Virus record (IMG/VR): IMGVR_UViG_3300048118_000009
Span: 1-36,296 of that record
DNA from: a virus
Direction: 5' to 3' (one strand)
Length of the DNA: 36,296 bases
Below the pieces are notes generated by a model. That model made no database searches, had not been told where the DNA came from, and was given only the letters and a program-made list of their open reading frames with translations. Positions 3,705 to 36,296 of this stretch are shown here, piece after piece. The position numbers were made by a program, and so were the translations under genes. How positions within the stretch are numbered: position 1 is the stretch's first letter; each line of letters begins with the position of its first letter.

Positions 3705-6209
3705 CTAAAAGTAAGACAAACCAATTTTTCCAGTGTCAAAGTTTCCCTGTTCATTTACGACTTTCAGTTTCGTTAATTCCGCGCCTAAATCAACGCCTCC
3801 TGAACAAATATGAAATTCACCATAATCATAGTCGGTAATATTAGAACTTAATGACCAATAATTACTAGAAGTCTTTGTTAATATAATCATTCCGTTTCTA
3901 GCACTTGATGCAGTATTCAAATCAAGTCCAAGCGTAAATGCTGAGCCTTTATCATCTTGCGCCCAAGTTCCTGCTCTGTATTTCATTGCCATAGATTTAT
4001 ATCCGCTAGTTTTATAAGCAGAGCTTGTGCCAAGTGTTACAGTAATTTCGGTTGCGCTACTATCTCCTGTGTTTTGTAAAGCAAGAAAAATTACACTGAC
4101 TCCAGAAGGAATTCCTGTAAATTCCGCAGTTGTTGCTGAAGCTACATCTATAGATGATAAAATAGTAAATCCTGCCGCAACATCATCCCATGAAGCAATT
4201 GTTCCATTGGTTGTTAGATATTTGCCATCATTGCCTGTCTGACTTGGCAGAGCGTCAATGTTGTCTATCTGTGTTTGAATGTTAGAAGTAACGCCATCAA
4301 CATAGTTCAGCTCAGTAGAAGTAGCAGTAACGCCAAGATCGGTCAGATCATCGGGCTTTGCATCTATCTGAGTTTGGATGTTGGAAGTAACACCGTCTGT
4401 GTAGTTTAACTCTGTAGCCGTAGCTGTAAGACCAAGGTTTATCAGAGCTGTGGCTGCGTTATCAAGATCAGACAGGTTATTAGACTGCTGTGTGTATCTA
4501 GCGTCACTCTGTGCCTGTGTGTAGACATCAGCAACATTGAACGCACCGTAAGCAATGATAGAGACGTTATCGCCTGTGGTAGCGCCTGTAGCCAAGATGA
4601 TCGTAGCGCCGTCTGTGGCTGTGAAGTCTGTAGTAGGGATTAGCTTAGAGCCGTTCAGGTAGACATCAACAAAGCCCACATCGTAAGTGGCTGAGAAGTT
4701 GGTCTGACCTGACGTAGCGACATACTCTTGACGCTCTGCTGTACCGTTTACTGCACTACCTGCTGCTGCCCACGATGAGCCTGAGTACACAAACATCGTG
4801 TCCGAGACAGTGTTGAAATATAAAGCACCTGCTTGCAGTGGGTTGCCTTGATTATCTACCGTAGGAGCCGTGGATTTAGCGCCAAGATAAAGCTCCTCAA
4901 ACTCTTCCAGAGCTGCTTCTGCTCCGGTTTCCGCTGTGGCTGCGTCTGTAGCTGAACTAGCCGCCGCAGTTGCGCTTCCCGCTGCCGCTGTAGCGCTTCC
5001 CGCTGCCGCAGTTGCACTTCCCGCCGATGCAGTTGCACTTGACGCACTCGCTGCCGCCGAGGCCGCGCTATCCGATGCCTCTGAGGTACTGGTCGCAGCG
5101 CTTGCCGCACTAGAACTAGCAGAAGCCGCCGAAGCATTTTCGCTGACCAAGGCCGCTGCTGCCGAAGCCGCTGCCGCGCTTTCGCTACCGCTAGCCCCAG
5201 AGGCACTAGAGGCCGCTGCCGCAGCACTCGCCGCACTATTCGTCTCAGATGTTGCCGCAGCATTTTGGCTTGCTAAGGCCGCTGCCGCCGAAGTAGCACT
5301 CTCGCTGGCGCTAGTTGCCGATGATGCAGCACTTGCCGCGCTATTGGTTTCGGCTGTCTCGGCATTGGTTTCCGCAGTCTCTGCCGCTGCCTGAGCTGCT
5401 TCCGCTGCCACCTGAGCTGTCTCGGCATTAGTCTCTGCAAGTTCGGCTGCATTCTCGCTGACCAAGGCCGCTGCCGCACTCGCCGCTGCTGCCGTAGCAC
5501 TTGCCGCTGCCGCTGCACTTGTACCCACCCAATAAGCAGGCGACGTAGCAGGATCGTTACCAGTGTTAGAGTTTTGCAGAGACGTATAGAGAATGCCGTC
5601 AGTACCGACAGCGTTTTGATCCTCTGCATAAGTCGCTGTGGCAAGCCATGCAAAACTTAGCAATACCCAGTAATTAGGCTGAGTAGAGGGGTTCTGGTTT
5701 AGGTTAGAGTTTTGTAGGGATTGGTACTGCTCGCCGCCGTAAGTCACCAGCGCGCCAACCTGATAAGTTATGCCCTGATTCCATTCTACGGAATAAAGCA
5801 AGGTCCAGTAGCCCGTGGTAGTCACTGGATTGTTGTTCTGATTACCGTTAATCAGTGAGCGGTAAAATGTTCCGTCCGAACCTAGAACCACATCAGTGGC
5901 GCTGTAGATCTTGGTGGCTACCCACTGGTCGCCAAAGTCCGTATCTGTTTCGCCTACAGGATCTCGGACCGCAATTTGCACATCGGAATTGTTAGCAAGG
6001 ATGCACTTAGCAACACCGTCAAAGAAGATGTTGGGCTGGCGACCGGCAGCAGACAGTAGAACGGGATTAGTGTTCGGGATAGAGTTATTGATATCCGCAA
6101 AAGTAGTCTTAGGAGTCGTAGTGCCAGACTCATAAAAGTAAAGCTTACCCTCTACCAAAGGTTCGCCAGCGTTGTCTAGGTATTGGTCAAAATCGCCGAA
6201 ACGTGCCAT
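3705..6209 (-). CDS. Tail fibre/spike with head-binding N-terminus and Ala/Ser-rich shaft
   Basis: 834 residues. Residues 1-100 (MARFGDFDQYLDNAGEPL, GKLYFYESGTTTPKT, AGRQPNIFF) look like a podoviral fibre head-binding domain. Residues about 100-230 hold three tandem modules with a repeated YxSLQNSNxNxNPxTxPxYWV core, resembling CBM5/12 chitin-binding-type folds. About 230-430 is an Ala/Ser repeat shaft with blocks such as ASAAAALVSENAA, probably a trimeric coiled coil. Then comes a linker (ALYFNTVSDTMFVYSGSSW), two copies of TELNYxDGVTSNIQTQID and a C-terminal beta-rich domain. It is the first gene of the adhesion cluster after the ejection proteins. Function: host recognition (family knowledge plus position). 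The shaft makes long open frames on both strands that are not genes. Confidence 0.85.
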   Translation of the reverse strand: MARFGDFDQYLDNAGEPLVEGKLYFYESGTTTPKTTFADINNSIPNTNPVLLSAAGRQPNIFFDGVAKCILANNSDVQIAVRDPVGETDTDFGDQWVATKIYSATDVVLGSDGTFYRSLINGNQNNNPVTTTGYWTLLYSVEWNQGITYQVGALVTYGGEQYQSLQNSNLNQNPSTQPNYWVLLSFAWLATATYAEDQNAVGTDGILYTSLQNSNTGNDPATSPAYWVGTSAAAAASATAAAASAAAALVSENAAELAETNAETAQVAAEAAQAAAETAETNAETAETNSAASAASSATSASESATSAAAALASQNAAATSETNSAASAAAAASSASGASGSESAAAASAAAALVSENASAASASSSAASAATSTSEASDSAASAAASASSATASAGSATAAAGSATAAAGSATAAASSATDAATAETGAEAALEEFEELYLGAKSTAPTVDNQGNPLQAGALYFNTVSDTMFVYSGSSWAAAGSAVNGTAERQEYVATSGQTNFSATYDVGFVDVYLNGSKLIPTTDFTATDGATIILATGATTGDNVSIIAYGAFNVADVYTQAQSDARYTQQSNNLSDLDNAATALINLGLTATATELNYTDGVTSNIQTQIDAKPDDLTDLGVTATSTELNYVDGVTSNIQTQIDNIDALPSQTGNDGKYLTTNGTIASWDDVAAGFTILSSIDVASATTAEFTGIPSGVSVIFLALQNTGDSSATEITVTLGTSSAYKTSGYKSMAMKYRAGTWAQDDKGSAFTLGLDLNTASSARNGMIILTKTSSNYWSLSSNITDYDYGEFHICSGGVDLGAELTKLKVVNEQGNFDTGKIGLSYF

Positions 6210-26858: not shown

Positions 26859-27071
26859 CTAAAGCCGCTCAATGGCCTCTTCTACTTCTTCTTCAATGCC
26901 GGCAACAATTCGGCGCGCCTTCTCGGCTATGGTCAATGTTTCGTTTGACAGTACGCGAGTTGCCCAGTCTAGGCGATCGCGGTAGAGCTCGAGCTCGGCT
27001 GCTTCCTGCTCGTCAATAGAAGCTTCGCACTCGTCGAGGTAGCGGTTAAGGTCTGCGATTACTGGATCCAT
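26859..27071 (-). CDS. Small helical acidic protein, unknown (70 aa)
   Basis: Start at the ATG at 27071 (MDPVIADLNRYLDECEASID), with TTGACGGAG 6 bases upstream. Upstream in-frame TTG is part of the ribosome site, not a start. Almost entirely alpha-helical and acidic, ending GIEEEVEEAIERL; looks like a coiled-coil adaptor. Its leader holds a UUCG hairpin (27091-27104). Unknown function; early-gene location. Confidence 0.7.
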   Translation of the reverse strand: MDPVIADLNRYLDECEASIDEQEAAELELYRDRLDWATRVLSNETLTIAEKARRIVAGIEEEVEEAIERL

Positions 27072-27090
27072 GGTGTTCTCCGTCAAGAGT

Positions 27091-27104
27091 GCCCCCGAAG
27101 GGGC
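27091..27104 (-). promoter_or_regulatory. UUCG tetraloop hairpin before the 70-aa gene's ribosome site
   Basis: The minus strand shows GCCCC-UUCG-GGGGC followed by ACUCUUGACGGAGAACACC and AUG. The stem sequence differs from the one at 27804-27817 but base pairing is kept (GGCCC/GGGCC there), supporting RNA-level selection. It could protect mRNA, arrest processing, or set ribosome access. Confidence 0.65.
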
Positions 27105-27112
27105 GGTTGAAT

Positions 27113-27382
27113 TTAGGCTATGATTTCTACTCTGGCATCAAAGTCAAAAGAAGTTTCGAAAGGAACGTAACCAGTGTCGCCGATTCGATCTGATCCCTCA
27201 GAGCTGTCAGCATCGATGCTAATAGTGTAGCCCTTAAAAAATTGACGACCAGTCTCAGGGTGGATAACCCAGCCTTTGTCAACGACAACGCCTTCAATGA
27301 ACTGGTCATCACGGCTAGGCATAGGTTGGAAATCATAAGCTCGGATTTTTTGGCCAATTTCTGCAATGTTTTCAAATTTCAT
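27113..27382 (-). CDS. Early small protein, unknown (89 aa)
   Basis: Start at MKFENIAEIGQKIRAYDFQP (27382) with ACGGGAGAAAC ahead of ATG. Contains beta-strand-like segments (VVVDKGWVIHPETGRQFFKG) and an acidic, polar C-terminus (DADSSEGSDRIG, DFDARVEIIA). No cysteine, membrane segment or known motif. It is the first gene of a promoter-leader cassette (P1, 27431-27458) nearly identical to that of the 107-residue gene starting at 28148. Confidence 0.75.
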   Translation of the reverse strand: MKFENIAEIGQKIRAYDFQPMPSRDDQFIEGVVVDKGWVIHPETGRQFFKGYTISIDADSSEGSDRIGDTGYVPFETSFDFDARVEIIA

Positions 27383-27399
27383 TTTGTTTCTCCCGTTTG

Positions 27400-27420
27400 G
27401 GAGGAGCACCGCGCCCCTCC
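27400..27420 (-). promoter_or_regulatory. 8-bp leader hairpin of cassette P1
   Basis: Minus-strand GGAGGGGC-GCGGU-GCUCCUCC, 8 bp with one G.U, loop of five. The copy at 28166-28186 differs at the first pair (U-A for G-C) and in the loop. It is 15-20 bases before ATG, between transcription start and the ribosome site. Confidence 0.7.
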
Positions 27421-27430
27421 AATGGTTCCC

Positions 27431-27458
27431 ATCTTAGCAGAACCATCAGGGGTGTCAA
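27431..27458 (-). promoter_or_regulatory. Promoter P1 (sigma70-like)
   Basis: TTGACA (27458-27453), 16 bp, TAAGAT (27436-27431) on the minus strand. It drives the 89-residue gene at 27382 through a structured leader. Very similar to P2 at 28196-28223. Confidence 0.8.
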
Positions 27459-27474
27459 CCACTTTAGATGACAA

Positions 27475-27783
27475 TTAATCAAAATAATGAAAATATTTTT
27501 TCATAGAGGTTTGCAGCAGTGTGGCGTAGGCTACCTTGGTCGCATGGTCCGAGATGCTGGTGAAGTGAGTATCGCCCGTCTCCTCAAGGTAATCCTCGCC
27601 CTCATCTGTGTCGCAATTCAAGCACAGTTGGAACGCCTTGGCGTAATAGGTGGCCCACTGGTGGGCGAGGCAGACTTCGTGGATTACTTGCACGGCGTCT
27701 TCGCCGAACTCATTGTGCGATACAAGCGCTTGATTAACGATGTTGTCAGCTTCGAGCTCGAGGGTGTAGTTGTTGATTTCCAT
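27475..27783 (-). CDS. Early acidic protein, unknown (102 aa)
   Basis: MEINNYTLELEADNIVNQAL, helical and acidic, with a two-Cys segment (CLNCDTDEGEDYLEE) and an aromatic end (KKYFHYFD). The ribosome site is TTGACGGAGAAACATC before ATG, following a UUCG hairpin at 27804-27817. No recognised family; perhaps a host-takeover inhibitor, given its early position, but nothing in the sequence proves it. Confidence 0.7.
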   Translation of the reverse strand: MEINNYTLELEADNIVNQALVSHNEFGEDAVQVIHEVCLAHQWATYYAKAFQLCLNCDTDEGEDYLEETGDTHFTSISDHATKVAYATLLQTSMKKYFHYFD

Positions 27784-27803
27784 GATGTTTCTCCGTCAAG
27801 AGT

Positions 27804-27817
27804 GGCCCCGAAGGGCC
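27804..27817 (-). promoter_or_regulatory. UUCG tetraloop hairpin before the 102-aa gene's ribosome site
   Basis: Minus-strand GGCCC-UUCG-GGGCC, then ACUCUUGACGGAGAAACAUC and AUG. Covaries with 27091-27104. Confidence 0.65.
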
Positions 27818-27827
27818 GGTTGGTTAA

Positions 27828-28148
27828 TTAATAAGCGCCAGAGTAGTTGCCTTTAAACTCGCCGAAGATGTTGCCGCGAGCAAAGTTTGTGGCAGGGCCA
27901 GACCAGCTTTTGGCCATTAGGATGTCACCAGCTTTGAACTTTTCGCCGTCTTCCGCGACTATAAAGCCCCAAACTGTAGGCTGGTCGTTTAAGCCAGTGA
28001 TAATTTTGTAATACTTTCGGCCTTTCTCGTAACCTACACCTTCGCACCAGTTTTTTACAAACTCGTCGCTGTGATCTCCGCGATTAGCAAATTGTTCAGC
28101 AAAAGATGATTTCATTGATTCGAGAAGGTTGTTAAGTGCTTGTTCCAT
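27828..28148 (-). CDS. Early protein, unknown (106 aa)
   Basis: Start at MEQALNNLLESMKSSFAEQF (28148), with ACGGGAGAAACATC before ATG; longer in-frame starts would run into the leader and promoter. The N-terminal helix is followed by DEFVKNWCEGVGYEKGRKYY and a beta-rich part (TVWGFIVAEDGEKFKAGDIL) that resembles a small OB- or SH3-like barrel. Driven by P2 (28196-28223). Function unknown. Confidence 0.75.
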   Translation of the reverse strand: MEQALNNLLESMKSSFAEQFANRGDHSDEFVKNWCEGVGYEKGRKYYKIITGLNDQPTVWGFIVAEDGEKFKAGDILMAKSWSGPATNFARGNIFGEFKGNYSGAY

Positions 28149-28165
28149 GATGTTTCTCCCGTTGG

Positions 28166-28186
28166 TGAGGAGCACCATGCCCCTCA
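28166..28186 (-). promoter_or_regulatory. 8-bp leader hairpin of cassette P2
   Basis: Minus-strand UGAGGGGC-AUGGU-GCUCCUCA; same length and loop size as the hairpin of cassette P1, with the outermost pair changed from G-C to U-A. Compensatory change supports a conserved RNA fold. Confidence 0.7.
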
Positions 28187-28195
28187 ATGGTTCCC

Positions 28196-28223
28196 ATTCT
28201 ACAGAAACCACTGGGGGTGTCAA
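28196..28223 (-). promoter_or_regulatory. Promoter P2 (sigma70-like)
   Basis: TTGACA (28223-28218), 16 bp, TAGAAT (28201-28196) on the minus strand. The -35 region, spacer and leader are a near copy of P1, so the cassette was duplicated. Confidence 0.8.
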
Positions 28224-28247
28224 CCCTTTTGGGTGACAAAAGTTAAA

Positions 28248-28448
28248 TTAATTTATCTCCTCGCAATTTATTTCAAGATTACGAAAATTTGGCCAGCCGA
28301 ATTGCTGACTTGTTTCTCTGCCCAAGCACACCATGGAGGCGTATTCAGCAGATGCGATTTCGGCGTCTTGCTGCTCAAGCTTGCCGGAATAGTTGAGCCC
28401 AGCAATAACAATGATTGCGAGCGTTAATAGATAGAATTCTTTTTTCAT
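28248..28448 (-). CDS. Small membrane-anchored or secreted protein (66 aa)
   Basis: MKKEFYLLTLAIIVIAGLNY is a basic start plus a hydrophobic segment (residues 6-18), i.e. a signal anchor or signal peptide. A soluble part with two Cys follows (MVCLGRETSQQFGWP, EINCEEIN) that could be periplasmic. The ribosome site is CGGGAGACGAAGAC before ATG. An early membrane protein might act in superinfection exclusion; this is inference from topology and position only. Confidence 0.65.
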   Translation of the reverse strand: MKKEFYLLTLAIIVIAGLNYSGKLEQQDAEIASAEYASMVCLGRETSQQFGWPNFRNLEINCEEIN

Positions 28449-28467
28449 GTCTTCGTCTCCCGAAAAG

Positions 28468-28746
28468 TTATATTAATTGGGCTTTTGCTGGGCGATTGTA
28501 GAATCCAAACTGAGGGTCGTCATCGCTAGGCTTAACAGTGCCGGTCAATTTTATGCGACGGCCTTTAAGCTCAATATTTTCTGACTGGGCGAAATCAACA
28601 ACGATGGTGGGAACTGATCCGAAAAGCTTAAAGCCTCGATCATCATGGATAGTGCATTTGAGCACTTCACCATAATCGCTTTCGTACCATTTGGTAAATA
28701 TGATTTGGCCTGTGATTTCTTCTCGGCCTTTAGGTATTGCTTCCAT
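28468..28746 (-). CDS. OB-fold-like small nucleic-acid-binding protein (92 aa)
   Basis: MEAIPKGREEITGQIIFTKW, then GEVLKCTIHDDRGFKLFGSV and GRRIKLTGTVKPSDDDPQFG, ending YNRPAKAQLI. Alternating beta strands with a DDDPxFGFYxRP finish resemble OB-fold domains found alone or fused in phage replication proteins. Ribosome site TTGACGGAGATAATCTA before ATG, behind promoter P3 and a 6-bp hairpin (28768-28784). Likely binds single-stranded nucleic acid (inference). Confidence 0.65.
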   Translation of the reverse strand: MEAIPKGREEITGQIIFTKWYESDYGEVLKCTIHDDRGFKLFGSVPTIVVDFAQSENIELKGRRIKLTGTVKPSDDDPQFGFYNRPAKAQLI

Positions 28747-28767
28747 TAGATTATCTCCGTCAAGAGC

Positions 28768-28793: not shown

Positions 28794-28823
28794 ATAATAC
28801 AAAATACTTTTATCTAATGTCAA
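28794..28823 (-). promoter_or_regulatory. Promoter P3 (sigma70-like)
   Basis: TTGACA (28823-28818), 18 bp, TATTAT (28799-28794) on the minus strand, overlapping the end of the 65-residue gene. Drives the OB-fold-like gene at 28746. Confidence 0.75.
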
Positions 28824-29017
28824 CCATTCTGGTTAATAAAAGTTTCCCTTCCTATTGCTTTATCTATCGCGTGGCATTCAAGGCAGTACCAGCAGACTCT
28901 GTACATAACCATCTGGCCATCAGTAACTCTCTCTTTGAACCCTATCACCTCACCCATTACCTCTCCGCATCTACATGGCTTCTCTCTAAGATCATCTATG
29001 TTCTCAGTGTTTGTCAT
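28820..29017 (-). CDS. Small zinc-ribbon-like protein (65 aa)
   Basis: MTNTENIDDLREKPCRCGEV, then MYRVCWYCLECHAIDKAIGR. CxC and CxxCxxC(H) clusters at residues 15-17 and about 42-48 make a plausible zinc ribbon. The ribosome site is AAAGG before ATG at 29017. It is the first gene downstream of the 29018-29577 non-coding block on the minus strand. Function unknown; possibly a transcription or translation modifier. Confidence 0.7.
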   Translation of the reverse strand: MTNTENIDDLREKPCRCGEVMGEVIGFKERVTDGQMVMYRVCWYCLECHAIDKAIGRETFINQNG

Positions 29018-29039
29018 TGTATTGCCTTTGGTGAGTTAG

Positions 29040-29320
29040 GAGGATTTGCGAGCAAGCAAGCCCCAACCCACGGGAAGTAGGTTTCGGGACGTTGCATTGC
29101 CTTCGGAGCCGTCAGTGTGGACAGCGAGGCCGTGTTATTGAGTCAGATAACACAAGCAAGTCTGCAAGGGATGCTGACTCCATCCCCCCGCGCCGCATTC
29201 AGACTTTTAGCAAGTTGCGGTGCCCCCGCGCTACTCTTTTGGGGCTTTAAACTACGATCGGTGAGAGACCCTTTATAGGTGACATATCCTTCGCAGTCGA
29301 GTCGGAGACTAAATCTATAG
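29040..29320 (+). ncRNA. Structured non-coding RNA with kissing loop and pseudoknot
   Basis: No convincing ORF on either strand. On the plus strand, hairpin A (GTGTTAT 29132-29138 / ATAACAC 29147-29153) has loop UGAGUCAG. Hairpin B (GGGATG 29168-29173 / CATCCC 29181-29186) has loop CUGACUC. The loops are complementary over 7 nt, a kissing interaction. AAGTCTG (29158-29164) can pair with CAGACTT (29200-29206), which lies inside the loop of helix GCGCCGCA/TGCGGTGC (29190-29197/29216-29223), a pseudoknot. AAGCCCC near 29060-29064 could pair with GGGGCTT at 29241-29247. A G.U in the 8-bp helix is a C-A mismatch on the minus strand, so plus-strand transcription is favoured. It may be one RNA of about 530 nt ending at the 29567 terminator. 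Reminiscent of large phage RNAs such as ROOL or GOLLD, without proof of kinship. Confidence 0.6.
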
Positions 29321-29330
29321 AGAAAATATG

Positions 29331-29358
29331 TTGAAGAACACAACATATAGTGTAGAAT
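29331..29358 (+). promoter_or_regulatory. Plus-strand promoter candidate
   Basis: TTGAAG (29331-29336), 16 bp, TAGAAT (29353-29358). The -10 and spacer equal those of promoter P2. Predicted start near 29365 coincides with the first base of the outer helix of the downstream RNA. An 8-bp inverted repeat (ATATGTTG/CAACATAT) overlaps the -35 and could be an operator. A weaker minus-strand promoter is also conceivable here. Confidence 0.5.
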
Positions 29359-29364
29359 AGCCCT

Positions 29365-29567
29365 TGTCGGGTTTCTGGCTACACTTGCTTCTCCGTATTG
29401 ATCTAGCCGGAATTCAGGGCCTTAACAACCCACCGACATCTAACTTTCACAGATTACTCTTACAGAAATAATTCTGCAAGCGAAAACGTGATTTAATCTA
29501 TATGCTTTTTATTTCTGATTCTTTTTTTTAAGTCCCGACACGTTGTGAAACGCTCGGGCTTTTTTTT
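29365..29567 (+). ncRNA. Candidate small RNA 2 with anti-Shine-Dalgarno loop
   Basis: About 203 nt between a promoter-like element and a strong terminator. TGTCGG (29365-29370) pairs with CCGACA (29433-29438). Nested inside, CTGGCTA (29375-29381) pairs with TAGCCGG (29404-29410, one U.G). The 22-nt loop (29382-29403) exposes CUUCUCCGU (29388-29396), complementary to ACGGAGAA in the ribosome sites of the genes starting at 27071 and 27783. A 3' intrinsic terminator has a GUGA tetraloop. No ORF. Regulation in trans is inferred; the folds are seen by hand and not energy-scored. Confidence 0.55.
29534..29567 (+). terminator. Rho-independent terminator, plus strand
   Basis: CCCGA/TCGGG outer stem, small internal loop, CGTT/AACG inner stem closed by a GUGA (GNRA) loop, then C and eight Ts. 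The opposite strand has no T-run after the stem, so it serves plus-strand transcription. It ends just before the minus-strand gene at 29578. Confidence 0.85.
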
Positions 29568-29577
29568 GACTGAAATT

Positions 29578-29796
29578 TTACACGTTGCGATCTGAGATCT
29601 CTTGATCAATAAGAAACTCAGCGTACTGGATTATCTTGCGCAAATCCTCAATGCCGTTCTTGTCCTTCCATCGAGTAATGTACTTGATAATATTCCCCTC
29701 GCAATAGCCGAGCTTATTCTCAAGGATATATTGAATAGGCTGAATCTTGAGTTTTTCGTAGTGAGTCCCGCCGACTTGGCGCCTAGGATTTATCAT
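29578..29796 (-). CDS. DUF3310-like protein (72 aa)
   Basis: MINPRRQVGGTHYEKLKIQP then IQYILENKLGYCEGNIIKYI, TRWKDKNGIEDLRKIIQYAE. The GGxHYxxxxIQPxxyI...GNxIKYixRxkxKnGxEDLrKaxxY pattern is diagnostic of the DUF3310 family, widespread in phages and related in part to T7 gp1.7-type nucleotide-kinase accessory proteins. Biochemical role not settled. TAATG overlap with the upstream gene. Confidence 0.85.
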   Translation of the reverse strand: MINPRRQVGGTHYEKLKIQPIQYILENKLGYCEGNIIKYITRWKDKNGIEDLRKIIQYAEFLIDQEISDRNV

Positions 29797-30002
29797 TAGT
29801 GCATCTCCACTTCGTCAAGCTGTATATAGTTCTCGAAATCGTCCCATAAATCGCTTTGCACAATAAAGTCCACGTAGTCTGAGCACATAAGCATTAAGGT
29901 CGCTACGGCCCTCTGAGAGCTCTCTGGGAGCTGTTTAAACTCATCATCCATGAAAGTGTCCATCTCTTTAGAACTCATAGAAATTATATGTTTTTCGCTC
30001 AT
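29796..30002 (-). CDS. Small acidic protein, unknown (68 aa)
   Basis: MSEKHIISMSSKEMDTFMDD, helical, with TLMLMCSDYVDFIVQSDLWD in the middle. ATGA overlap with the NinG stop, and its own stop overlaps the DUF3310-like ATG, so it sits firmly in the operon. No recognised family. Confidence 0.65.
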   Translation of the reverse strand: MSEKHIISMSSKEMDTFMDDEFKQLPESSQRAVATLMLMCSDYVDFIVQSDLWDDFENYIQLDEVEMH

Positions 30003-30574
30003 CTGAACTTCCTTTCGTATAACCGCTTTCGGTAATTAAAGATCTTTTTTACCCGCTTCAGGTACTCAATGGTAAATTTCAGCTGTGAATTATCATTTTC
30101 CAGTTGTAAAACTCTATCGGCTCCGATCTTTTCGATTAGACCCTTTCGGTACTCTACGACGTTGCCTGAGAGATACCGGTTGCATTTGACGCACTGGCTG
30201 TGGCAATTCAATAAATGGTATCTAAGGTGCCCAGCAGATCCACGTGAACGGTAGTGCCCAGCGTCGAATTTGCCGCCCTGCACTGTATCGCCCTGAGCGG
30301 CCCCGCAGCTAATACAGGGCTTGTTGCGGTCCCTCATTCTGATATATGCGTTAAAAGCAGTCTGAGCCTCTTTGACGTAATCTGAGGCAGTCTTCAGGGA
30401 TTCCTTAACAGCTTTTGCCTCACGAGCATACGACAATTTGGCAGTCTTTTTTGCCCGATCTGTCGTGGTGTACTCGTGCAGATGATCCCAAGAGCAGAAC
30501 GAATAAATGCCGCCCATGACCGCCTCGCTTTCAGGGGTCTTGGTGCGGCATAGTTTGCAGCGTCTTGTCTTCAT
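29999..30574 (-). CDS. ninG: NinG/Rap-like recombination protein
   Basis: 191 residues. Paired cysteines near the N-terminus (CKLC, 6-9), then a basic helical segment (DRAKKTAKLSYAREAKAVKE), CISCG (87-91), DAGHYRSRG (104-112) and CHSQCVKCNRYLSGN (124-138). This is the NinG (Rap) layout of lambdoid phages; the GHYxxRG and clustered Cys form an HNH-like zinc fold. In lambda, Rap aids RecBCD/Red recombination and cleaves branched DNA. Fits with ERF and exonuclease nearby. ATGA coupling to the upstream gene. Confidence 0.9.
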   Translation of the reverse strand: MKTRRCKLCRTKTPESEAVMGGIYSFCSWDHLHEYTTTDRAKKTAKLSYAREAKAVKESLKTASDYVKEAQTAFNAYIRMRDRNKPCISCGAAQGDTVQGGKFDAGHYRSRGSAGHLRYHLLNCHSQCVKCNRYLSGNVVEYRKGLIEKIGADRVLQLENDNSQLKFTIEYLKRVKKIFNYRKRLYERKFR

Positions 30575-31607: not shown

Positions 31608-31916
31608 TTAAAACGGTAAGTCGTCGTCAAAGTCATCAACAGGTGATGCTACTGCTGGGACCGGTACAGTGCTTGGACCGTTTAGGAGCTCTGCCAGCTT
31701 GTCAGATCCTATGCTTGCCTCGCCTTTGATTAGCGGGCGATTAGGAGCTGCTGGGTCAGGCTTATTCGTGTAAGCGCTGGTCCTGATCTTAGGAATATGG
31801 AACTGGCACTTAGGGCAGGTAAAGCTTCCGCTGCCCGTAGTGTGAGGAGCTCGATCGTTCTTGCGCTCGTTGTCCTTCCATAATGCGTATTCAAATATAG
31901 TGGTGTAATTACTCAT
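31608..31916 (-). CDS. Zinc-binding protein with SSB-like acidic C-terminal tip
   Basis: 102 residues. FTCPKCQFHI (C34, C37, H40) suggests a zinc knuckle; the end DDFDDDLPF is the acidic tip of bacterial SSB (DDDIPF), which docks host repair and replication proteins. The body lacks the OB fold of SSB (no conserved aromatic pattern). It lies between the exonuclease and XRE genes, so it may recruit host SSB-partner proteins to phage recombination. Ribosome site CTGACGGAGACG before ATG, lying inside the last codons of the exonuclease gene. Confidence 0.65.
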   Translation of the reverse strand: MSNYTTIFEYALWKDNERKNDRAPHTTGSGSFTCPKCQFHIPKIRTSAYTNKPDPAAPNRPLIKGEASIGSDKLAELLNGPSTVPVPAVASPVDDFDDDLPF

Positions 31917-32512
31917 TTTAACGTCTCCGTCAGTTCATTAATTTTAATTGCAGTTTCTTTTAGCAGCTCTTCCGCTGCGGCCAGCAGTTTATCGTCCCGC
32001 TTGACGTTCAAGATAAAAGGCTTCATTTCTGGATGGTAAGCGTAGAACCACCAGTTAGACCGCCCAGTGACGAGCATACAACCGTGGACCTGCTGGACGT
32101 ATGCCGATGGAAGTTTGCCTGATCTTTTGTATGCTATCATGGTTGACGCAGAAGGGCACTTGATTTCTAAACCGGAGTCGTCACCTATGAGGGAGTCAGG
32201 TGAGCAACCTATCTCGTAATCGTCCATTTTAATCAGGCCGACGAGCTCCGCTGACAAGCCGGTTTCTAGCTCGAACATATCCCTAGCCTCCGGCTCTAGA
32301 TCGTTACCTCGCTGCATGGCTTCCGACTTAAACGTCTCTGTAGGCTTGCCAGTGATGCGTTCCGCTACAAGAGTATTGATAAGCGCGTCAGCCTGAGTAG
32401 ACGCCTTGCCGGCGCCTGTGAATACCTTGCTGAAGTTACTTGCAGTAATGACTCCGCAGCGCTGTGCAAGCCACGCGTCGCTACCCTGAATACAATCAAT
32501 TATTCGTGGCAT
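31913..32512 (-). CDS. YqaJ/lambda-exonuclease-like recombination nuclease
   Basis: 199 residues. W14 and R18 near the N-terminus (SDAWLAQRCGVITAS), MQRGNDLEPEARDMFE, GCSPDSLIG (catalytic D106), LEIKCPS (E116-x-K118) and YVQQVHGCMLV follow the YqaJ/lambda Exo order of a PD-(D/E)XK 5'-3' exonuclease. It pairs with the ERF annealing protein upstream to make a two-component recombinase. ATGA overlap with the SSB-tailed gene. Confidence 0.9.
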   Translation of the reverse strand: MPRIIDCIQGSDAWLAQRCGVITASNFSKVFTGAGKASTQADALINTLVAERITGKPTETFKSEAMQRGNDLEPEARDMFELETGLSAELVGLIKMDDYEIGCSPDSLIGDDSGLEIKCPSASTMIAYKRSGKLPSAYVQQVHGCMLVTGRSNWWFYAYHPEMKPFILNVKRDDKLLAAAEELLKETAIKINELTETLK

Positions 32513-32636
32513 CTGGAGCTCCCCTTATCCATAACGCTAGTGCGTAGTTAAAAAAGTCTAAGCAGGGCGAGCAGATACTTTGGCTGCGCGACCCCTGCTG
32601 TTTGCATAATTCACAAGCGTTATGGCTGCCCTTCAT
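32496..32636 (-). CDS. CxxC zinc-finger-like protein, 46 aa
   Basis: MKGSHNACELCKQQGSRSQS, then ICSPCLDFFNYALALWIRGA. Two CxxC pairs (C8/C11 and C22/C25) with an aromatic C-terminal helix. ATG lies in the last codons of the ERF gene with GAGG 6 bases upstream, and the stop is 17 bp inside the exonuclease gene. It fills the gap exactly. A 7-bp stem (AGCAGGG/CCCTGCT) near 32560-32605 lies inside it and is followed by TAGACTTTTTT on the minus strand, a possible attenuator. Confidence 0.75.
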   Translation of the reverse strand: MKGSHNACELCKQQGSRSQSICSPCLDFFNYALALWIRGAPDATNN

Positions 32637-33252
32637 TTTTGGCCTCTTTCTTTGAGATAAGATTAGCGACAATGCGCACCGCTTTATCCTGAGGAATTAG
32701 CTTTGTTTCAGAAGCTTTAGCCCATGCAGTGTAGCGCTGAACGTCTTCACCGAGCTCTTCGCACAGAGAGATAATCTGAGCAAGGGTCTCGGCTGTTACT
32801 AATGCTGGCTGTGAGGCCACCTGCTGAATCTGCTCGCTGTCAGCGTCTTCAACGCCGTCAATAGGAATGCAGAAGGCTTGGAACAAGAAGTATTTATAAG
32901 CGGCCGTCATAGCCTTATTTACTGCCTTGTCGCTAGTGTCCAGAGCTTCGCCGTAGGCAGTGTGGCAAATCGAATCTCCCTCGCTGTCATACAGTACAAA
33001 ACCTACCTCTAGGATAACGTGAGACGCTACACCGCCATTCTTGGTGGCCGTTGTCTTGATGTCTTTGCTTAGGACGTTAGGGATAATCAAAACGCCATGC
33101 TCAGCAATGATCGGCGCCAGCGTGTTAAGCACGTCGTCGATACCACGGAACTTGTAGCCTTGGTGGCTGTTCTTTTGATTTTTAGCGATTCCGACCTTGG
33201 ATAGATCAGACTGGACAGCGCTGAGCGCCTTGAAGATAGTACGTTGTGTCAT
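32620..33252 (-). CDS. erf: ERF-family single-strand annealing protein
   Basis: 210 residues. GYKFRGIDDVLNTLAPIIAE (32-51) and SDKAVNKAMTAAYKYFLFQA (about 127-146) are the two ERF-family signatures. The C-terminal 60 residues are Gln/Ala-rich and variable, as usual in this family. ERF forms rings on ssDNA and promotes annealing; in P22 it circularises terminally redundant DNA after injection, which this permuted genome would need. Ribosome site CTGACGGAGTAAAGAAA before ATG; promoter at 33285-33313. Confidence 0.9.
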   Translation of the reverse strand: MTQRTIFKALSAVQSDLSKVGIAKNQKNSHQGYKFRGIDDVLNTLAPIIAEHGVLIIPNVLSKDIKTTATKNGGVASHVILEVGFVLYDSEGDSICHTAYGEALDTSDKAVNKAMTAAYKYFLFQAFCIPIDGVEDADSEQIQQVASQPALVTAETLAQIISLCEELGEDVQRYTAWAKASETKLIPQDKAVRIVANLISKKEAKNEGQP

Positions 33253-33284
33253 TTTCTTTACTCCGTCAGTTAATAACGTAGACG

Positions 33285-33354: not shown

Positions 33355-33360
33355 CTGTCG

Positions 33361-33432
33361 AGTGGTTATCTCCGTCAGCTACCACCGCAGACCCCTAACT
33401 GGCTCTCCCGCTGGTTAGGGGTCTTTTTTTTT
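33361..33432 (+). ncRNA. Candidate small RNA 1 with anti-Shine-Dalgarno loop
   Basis: About 72 nt, two hairpins and nothing else. Hairpin 1: GUGGU (33362-33366) / ACCAC (33381-33385) with a 14-nt loop UAUCUCCGUCAGCU. Hairpin 2 is a 10-11 bp terminator. The loop is complementary over 11 nt to UGACGGAGAUA before the gene at 28746, over 10 nt to the site of the gene at 31916, and over 9 nt to those of 33252, 27071 and 27783. On the minus strand this GACGGAGA copy has no start codon behind it. A compact trans-acting translation repressor is inferred. Confidence 0.6.
33389..33432 (+). terminator. Rho-independent terminator, plus strand
   Basis: AGACCCCTAAC / GTTAGGGGTCT, 10-11 perfect bp, loop of 14, followed by nine Ts (33424-33432). 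The opposite strand lacks a T-run, so it is not the lysozyme terminator. It overlaps the last codon of the lysozyme gene. Confidence 0.9.
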
Positions 33433-36093: not shown

Positions 36094-36296
36094 TAAACAA
36101 CCCGCACTTTCAGATTATTCCCTGCCAACGCTGTAATCCTTACAGAGTTCTGAGCAGGAGCATCGAAGTCATAGTCAGTTCCTAAGACAGCACCTTTGTT
36201 CAACACGTTAGCATCGTAGTTAATTGCTACACCGTCTGACGAAGGTACTGTAGAACCCGATGTCATGTTGAAGACTATAGCTAGATCAAGATCGTC
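36093..36296 (-). CDS. C-terminal end of the large tail propeller protein (continues from position 1 across the circular junction)
   Basis: The minus strand from 36296 reads the same 44 residues found at 178-47 on the left (DDLDLAIVFNMTSGS at the start), in the same frame. It then ends with ITALAGNNLKVRVV and a TAA at 36095-36093. The stop overlaps the ATG of the metallophosphoesterase gene by one base (TAATG), so the two are translationally coupled. This is the true C-terminus of the tail protein that begins at 3397 once the genome is circularised. Confidence 0.85.
   Translation of the reverse strand, partial: DDLDLAIVFNMTSGSTVPSSDGVAINYDANVLNKGAVLGTDYDFDAPAQNSVRITALAGNNLKVRVV
36165..36296. 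repeat. Terminal redundancy, right copy
   Basis: Partner of 47-178 at a constant offset of 36,118 bp. The reading frame of the tail gene is kept across the join, which supports true circularity over a chance repeat. Confidence 0.8.

Follow-up and report, generated by a model that had tools for sequence, protein, structure and literature searches.

Nearly every plausible gene of the 36.3-kb virus contig studied here (G000; the window, 36,296 nucleotides in all) lies on the minus strand. Does the plus-strand interval at 29365–29567 encode a small RNA, and if so, which genes would such an RNA act upon? The first-pass annotation of this DNA had proposed an independent plus-strand RNA with an anti-Shine-Dalgarno (anti-SD) loop that would share the control of the phage's own leaders with another RNA, small RNA 1. 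By comparing the interval with relatives from other viral contigs, we find that the exposed RNA sequences match the ribosome-binding sites (RBSs) of each lineage, and the RNA is therefore probably a built-in brake on translation of the genes concerned. The promoter, the structure, the terminator, the family and the lineage-matched complementarity are all evident in the DNA itself. Gene starts throughout are predictions from a simple script, and the landmarks used below are these:

29578–29796: DUF3310 gene, near the small RNA
29999–30574: NinG/Rap-like endonuclease gene
31913–32512: YqaJ-type recombinase gene
32620–33252: erf, an ERF-family recombinase gene (Pfam PF04404)
33360–33431, plus strand: small RNA 1

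The contig ends (about 50–190 and 36150–36296) have about 140 nearly identical bases in common, with a few differences, which suggests that the genome end is circular or redundant, or that a domain is repeated.

Results

A predicted small RNA with its own promoter and terminator

The promoter, nested hairpins, 22-nt loop and GUGA-loop terminator of the first-pass annotation were all found in the sequence at the coordinates given for them. The elements of the locus are:

29326–29348: 8-bp dyad ATATGTTG-N7-CAACATAT spanning the -35 box, a candidate operator
29331–29358, plus strand: sigma-70-type promoter TTGAAG-N16-TAGAAT (-35 at 29331–29336, -10 at 29353–29358)
29365–29567, plus strand: small RNA, about 203 nt, a long member of its family
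29365–29438, plus strand: three-way-junction core
29365–29370/29433–29438, plus strand: helix P1, TGTCGG/CCGACA
29373–29381/29404–29412, plus strand: helix P2, including CTGGCTA (29375–29381) and TAGCCGG (29404–29410)
29382–29403: P2 loop of 22 nt, CACTTGCTTCTCCGTATTGATC
29388–29396, plus strand: anti-SD stretch CUUCUCCGU (as DNA, CTTCTCCGT) inside the P2 loop
29417–29419/29429–29431, plus strand: P3, a short third helix
29439–29530, plus strand: linker, degenerate in the window (GAUUACUCUU)
29531–29567, plus strand: intrinsic terminator (stem about 29531–29560, GUGA loop, T8 at 29560–29567)

It is the presence of P3 that makes the core a three-way junction. Inside the P2 loop a weak 3-bp stem (UGC/GUA) leaves the UUCUCC hexamer at 29389–29394 as the part predicted to be fully unpaired (p 0.98–1), and the anti-SD character ascribed to this loop is supported. 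Only the plus strand has the T-tract of the terminator, in agreement with transcription of that strand. The promoter matches at 9/12 positions, and such matches are in modest excess in the region (18 versus 12.8 ± 3.6 in shuffles); the folding energy of 29360–29570 by itself is unexceptional (z -1.64). As for the dyad, 2/200 shuffles were equally good, and L117, a relative, carries the compensating variant GATGTTG-N7-CAACATC at the equivalent position; a family-wide dyad was looked for and not found, most members having no clear one. This element could be an operator shared with a divergent minus-strand RNA.

Adjoining the small RNA, on the minus strand at 29018–29310, is another structured RNA, about 290 nt long, which leads into the gene at 28820–29017. 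It is >90% conserved in about 19 contigs and has 78 predicted pairs, 6 of them with double compensatory changes; its G.U pairs speak for the minus strand, and Rfam has no match to it. In every readable contig that has this block, the small RNA (or, in L005, its remnant) adjoins it, and L010 has just a short partial match to the block. Separately, L005 (rc about 5830–5990), L090, L101 and L113 carry a further conserved non-coding element 3' of the small RNA, reading ..GATAGTAGAGA..GGAGGGGTTCTNNCCAACCC..terminator, which is possibly a further small RNA.

An RNA family with constant anatomy

The first relatives came to light by way of the DUF3310 neighbour, and others followed from the pattern TTGTCGGGTT-N-AACCCACCGAC; two loci that matched this pattern, L088 and L123, did so by chance and are probably coding sequence. 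The family is present in more than 50 IMG/VR contigs and keeps one anatomy, in which a -10 box (TAGAAT, TATACT, TACAAT or TATAAT, with promoter spacing kept) stands about 7 nt before TGTCGG and is followed by the nested core, a linker, a GC hairpin and a T run. The terminator is kept in the relatives aligned, and promoter, core and terminator persist even where the loop has diverged. Most members measure 119–139 nt, and the 203 nt of the window copy are due to a longer P2 hairpin and linker. Variation among members falls in three places, namely both hairpin loops (P2 and P3) and the linker that follows P1. The P2 loop is hypervariable, and almost no change is seen in P1 or in the UUUAGGG/AACCC segment. 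In L005, a close relative of the window, P2 and P3 are gone (TGTCGGGTTTCCGACA) and promoter, linker and terminator are kept.

A covariance model, R1, was built from 14 members; the window, itself one of the training rows, scores 60.4 bits over the core (E about 1e-12), and members outside the training set match as well as trained ones (45–82 bits). R1 also picks up further members beside erf genes that had been fetched by protein alone. Conservation of the core across these relatives makes the small RNA more than a chance arrangement. When P1 was left unconstrained, every true member recovered had the same P1 and none an altered one, and it was only a search with the neighbouring RNA block at 29018–29310 that led to diverged members in which the first base and P3 are changed. 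Against Rfam 15, neither the window nor its relatives reached the gathering threshold of any family, the best weak matches (rliH, ncr982) lying far below it; for c4 (RF01695) there was likewise no gathering-level match in either, and none even at E up to 10 across 28950–29600. Cultured phages, plasmids and bacterial species genomes yielded chance matches only, including ten hits to genome contigs in which the rest of the anatomy is missing. In the papers searched for anti-SD phage small RNAs, no account of the family was found; it is apparently an undescribed RNA family of dozens of uncultured bacteriophages.

Base-pair counts over 40 distinct family sequences support the fold. The P2 pair 10/47 is U-A in 28, C-G in 10 and the intermediate U-G in 2, and the P2 pair 12/45 occurs as U-G, U-A or C-G; at the third P3 pair, 38 sequences have G-C and 2 have C-G. 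Double-changed cells number 13, versus 3.5 ± 1.5 in shuffles, and the signal is lost when the partner is shifted. Five of the six P1 pairs never vary, so P1 lends no covariation support and provides no evidence against the model either. Members also differ in loop length by amounts not divisible by three, an argument against coding. The conserved structure contains plus-strand G.U pairs. The argument for plus-strand transcription that had been drawn from a U.G pair in the inner helix is supported, and so is the reading of the locus as an independent plus-strand RNA.

Lineage-matched complementarity to ribosome-binding sites

Each of the three variable parts (P2 loop, P3 loop, linker) can bear the complement of RBSs of its own lineage. 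Across most of the family, the antisense site with the best support is not the P2 loop but the linker (in clade X, the P3 loop). Clades A and B, as well as L104, L120 and L176, have an ERF gene 3' of the small RNA and on its strand; in the two clades this gene starts about 120–630 nt beyond the P1 helix. In this setting the linker and the erf RBS are complementary, with both sides lineage-specific, and the linkers of relatives bear UCUCC/CCCC, the complement of the erf leader:

Clade A, linker/erf RBS: AGUCCCCUUGAGU/ACUCAAGGAGAUU
B2, linker/erf RBS: UCUCCUUUAGAUGU/AUAUCUAAAGGAGA
L176, linker/erf RBS: UUUUAUCUCC(C)UUAGUG/CACUAAGGAGAUAAAA

When erf leaders were swapped between RNAs, own pairs exceeded swapped ones (p<5e-5 over 24 pairs, p=0.0125 over 6 leader clusters), L120 being an exception. 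In the L117/L121 clade it is the gene heading the recombination operon that the linker fits. Clade X, a sister clade that has the RNA block 29018–29310 in common with the window, commonly has CTGGAG (CUGGAG) leaders, and its P3 loop reads UUUCUCCAGG, with UCUCCAG.

A hexamer test used the top clade-specific leader hexamers, so that no motif was picked in advance. The complement of CTGGAG is present in 5/5 clade X RNAs and 0/34 others, that of GAGAAT in 17/17 clade B RNAs versus 0/22 others, and that of ACGGAG (CUCCGU) in the window-type RNA only, with 0/34 among the RNAs of other clades tested; the RNAs of clades A and D lack the complement of their own clade's top leader hexamers. Over seven clades, unpaired k-mers matched own-clade leaders beyond permutation (p=0.0012 for 7-mers, 0.0002 for 8-mers), and an earlier, coarser swap test with all leaders and a fixed energy cut-off gave weak results (p=0.014 for the loop, p=0.23 for the linker). 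The clades were drawn partly from RNA type and neighbourhood, so that shared ancestry is only partly controlled in these tests, and it counts against the pairing reading that some SD is fitted by any CUCC-containing loop. Since the lineage-matched complementarity exceeds permutation, a small RNA that would block RBSs is, at the level of sequence comparison, well supported as the function of the family.

Candidate targets of the window copy

Leaders of the window clade are marked by ACGGAG. As the first-pass annotation had reported, the genes starting at 27071 and 27783 have ACGGAGAA ahead of their ATGs; ACGGAG precedes 28746, 31916 and 33252 too. Predicted pairing energies are given for the P2 loop and for small RNA 1:

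27072–27083, minus strand: candidate leader ACGGAGAACACC, gene starting at 27071; 8-nt exact loop complement; loop -13.7, small RNA 1 -22.1 kcal/mol
27784–27796, minus strand: candidate leader ACGGAGAAACATC, gene starting at 27783; 8-nt exact loop complement; loop -14.2, small RNA 1 -18.3 kcal/mol
28747–28760, minus strand: leader ACGGAGATAATCTA, gene starting at 28746; loop -12.4, small RNA 1 -23.1 kcal/mol
31917–31930, minus strand: leader ACGGAGACGTTAAA, 102-aa gene starting at 31916; loop -12.6, small RNA 1 -17.9 kcal/mol
33253–33266, minus strand: leader ACGGAGTAAAGAAA, erf; loop -10.7, small RNA 1 -16.3 kcal/mol

Among 35 family loops, the window P2 loop has the best mean energy with these five ACGGAG leaders (-12.7 kcal/mol), followed by that of L011 (-10.3 kcal/mol). 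Within the window clade the complete ACGGAG fit is confined to the window type (1/5), L011 and L013 fit in part, and L006, L012 and L296 lack CUCCGU. Pairing of the window copy with its own leaders is thus plausible but weaker than the case for the family.

Small RNA 1 (fold z -4.74) is conserved and its stem covaries. Its hairpin loop, UAUCUCCGUCAGCU, and its terminator loop, CUCUCCCGC, are complements of the two leader types; the core of the hairpin loop, CUCCGUCA, is invariant in six aligned sequences, and the terminator loop carries CUCCCG. Predicted energies range from -16 to -23 kcal/mol for the hairpin loop paired with ACGGAG leaders and from -13 to -20 kcal/mol for the terminator loop paired with ACGGGAG/UCGGGAG leaders. 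In L011, where the erf leader changes from CUGACGG to UUGACGG, the small RNA 1 loop is changed accordingly. From these comparisons, small RNA 1 is the stronger candidate regulator of ACGGAG leaders in the window clade.

Two further proposals of the first-pass annotation fare differently. That two unrelated RNAs have converged on the phage's own leader motif is supported, CUCCGU being absent from the 34 RNAs elsewhere and small RNA 1 being both conserved and covarying. A division of labour, in which the P2 loop would be the special partner of ACGGAGAA leaders, is not: small RNA 1 pairs better with both such leaders and is the stronger on ACGGAG leaders, L006 and L012 are without CUCCGU, and L005 has lost the hairpin and kept its ACGGAGAA leaders.

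Two side observations concern the leaders themselves. In small RNA 1, the hairpin loop UCUCCGUCA fits ACGGAG leaders and the CUCCCG of the terminator loop fits CGGGAG leaders, both being conserved. Small early genes in the window (27072–28760) and in L003–L006, L009 and L012 have the leader module CTCTTGACGGAGA or CTCCTC..ACGGGAGAA, and orthologous small genes exchange the two modules among relatives, so that repeated leaders may partly reflect module exchange.

Discussion

Our analysis leads us to propose that the small RNA at 29365–29567 would be a stand-alone plus-strand phage RNA with its own sigma-70-like promoter and its own terminator, in which a rigid three-way junction would display short unpaired pyrimidine-rich stretches in the P2 loop, the P3 loop and the linker. 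These stretches would base-pair with the extended SD region of early and recombination genes of the phage itself, the pairing would block ribosome binding, and the target genes would be turned down at some stage of infection. Lineages would keep the scaffold and alter the pairing sequence, or the loop that hosts it, as the leader motif alters; in the window copy the candidate pairing sequence would be CUUCUCCGU in the P2 loop, directed at ACGGAG-type leaders, beside the stronger small RNA 1. We infer expression, direct pairing, repression and its timing from the conserved features above, and we regard this account taken whole as probable. More tentatively, and with somewhat less than even confidence, we posit a re-addressable control in which each lineage marks sets of its own genes with an extended SD 'address' (ACGGAG, CUGGAG, AAAGGAGA and others) and has a matching anti-address on whichever loop of its scaffold RNAs is available, the two co-evolving, with small RNA 1 having taken over much of this role in the window clade.

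A conserved phage RNA that mainly serves some purpose other than RBS pairing (for example as a protein-binding scaffold, an RNA sponge or a host-directed RNA), with the window loop incidental, would be in keeping with a nearly invariant P1 and UUUAGGG/AACCC segment beside a hypervariable P2 loop, with the retention of promoter, linker and terminator in L005 after P2 and P3 were lost, and with window-clade loops of which not all match; we consider it unlikely, however, given lineage-matched leader complementarity at three different positions of the RNA. The position of the RNA on the erf strand in clades A and B, shortly ahead of the erf start, could point to a cis-acting leader or attenuator of erf, combining terminator and anti-SD, rather than to a trans-acting RNA, but many erf genes of these clades have their own TTGACC...TAGACT promoter beyond the terminator, and in three other clades (window, X and D) the RNA is oriented against its neighbours and has no gene to lead into, which renders this reading improbable.

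In the window clade the genes flanking the small RNA are read from the opposite strand, as an antisense RNA to a minus-strand operon crossing the interval would have it; clades A and B, however, have no convincing gene opposite the RNA, the structure is conserved with plus-strand G.U pairs, and we give this explanation even less credence. Least credible of all is a chance hairpin, promoter and terminator in an AT-rich spacer holding no RNA gene, an idea that the unexceptional single-sequence fold and the modest promoter statistics would suit but that is already contradicted by conservation, the anatomy being kept in more than 50 contigs with compensatory changes.

Our preferred reading, a small RNA that would pair with RBSs of its own phage, gains interest from the fact that phage regulatory RNAs are known mostly singly, from a few model phages, whereas here an entire family can be traced through evolution, its RNA sequences varying in step with the RBSs of the same genomes. 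Should the pairing be confirmed, one RNA switch would govern a set of genes through a common extended SD motif, and the family would show how such a switch is rewired between lineages.

Among known systems, RNAIII of S. aureus and LhrC of Listeria use unpaired UCCC/CUCC motifs in hairpin loops to bind the SDs of several mRNAs. The family described here resembles them in its C/U-rich anti-SD loop, but it is phage-encoded, unrelated in sequence, and its loop tracks a lineage-specific extended SD. The C4 antisense RNA, a further precedent, pairs with an RBS region. C4, of phages P1 and P7, is a structured RNA of about 77 nt directed at mRNA from the ant operon of the phage itself (PMC12197685), and the likeness lies in a phage-encoded structured RNA with the phage's own mRNA as candidate target; unlike C4, the present family has its own promoter and terminator, a three-way junction and no Rfam c4 match, its candidate targets are several unlinked genes including erf, and its pairing site shifts between loops. 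Similarly, P22 sar RNA blocks ant translation (PMC12197685), and the window RNA, as a small phage RNA and candidate pairing repressor, resembles both sar and lambda OOP, which repress phage genes by pairing; sar and OOP, however, each act on one gene (OOP being antisense to cII), whereas here complementarity is partial and extends to a leader motif of several genes. PreS of lambda and VpdS of VP882 are independent trans-acting phage small RNAs (PMC12197685), as the window RNA, which ends in a terminator U-tract, is a candidate to be; PreS and VpdS depend on Hfq and have important host targets, and the sites matched by the family are the phage's own RBSs. Phage antisense control of translation is already known, and our finding is best filed under it, with the swappable anti-SD motif on a conserved scaffold as its new element.
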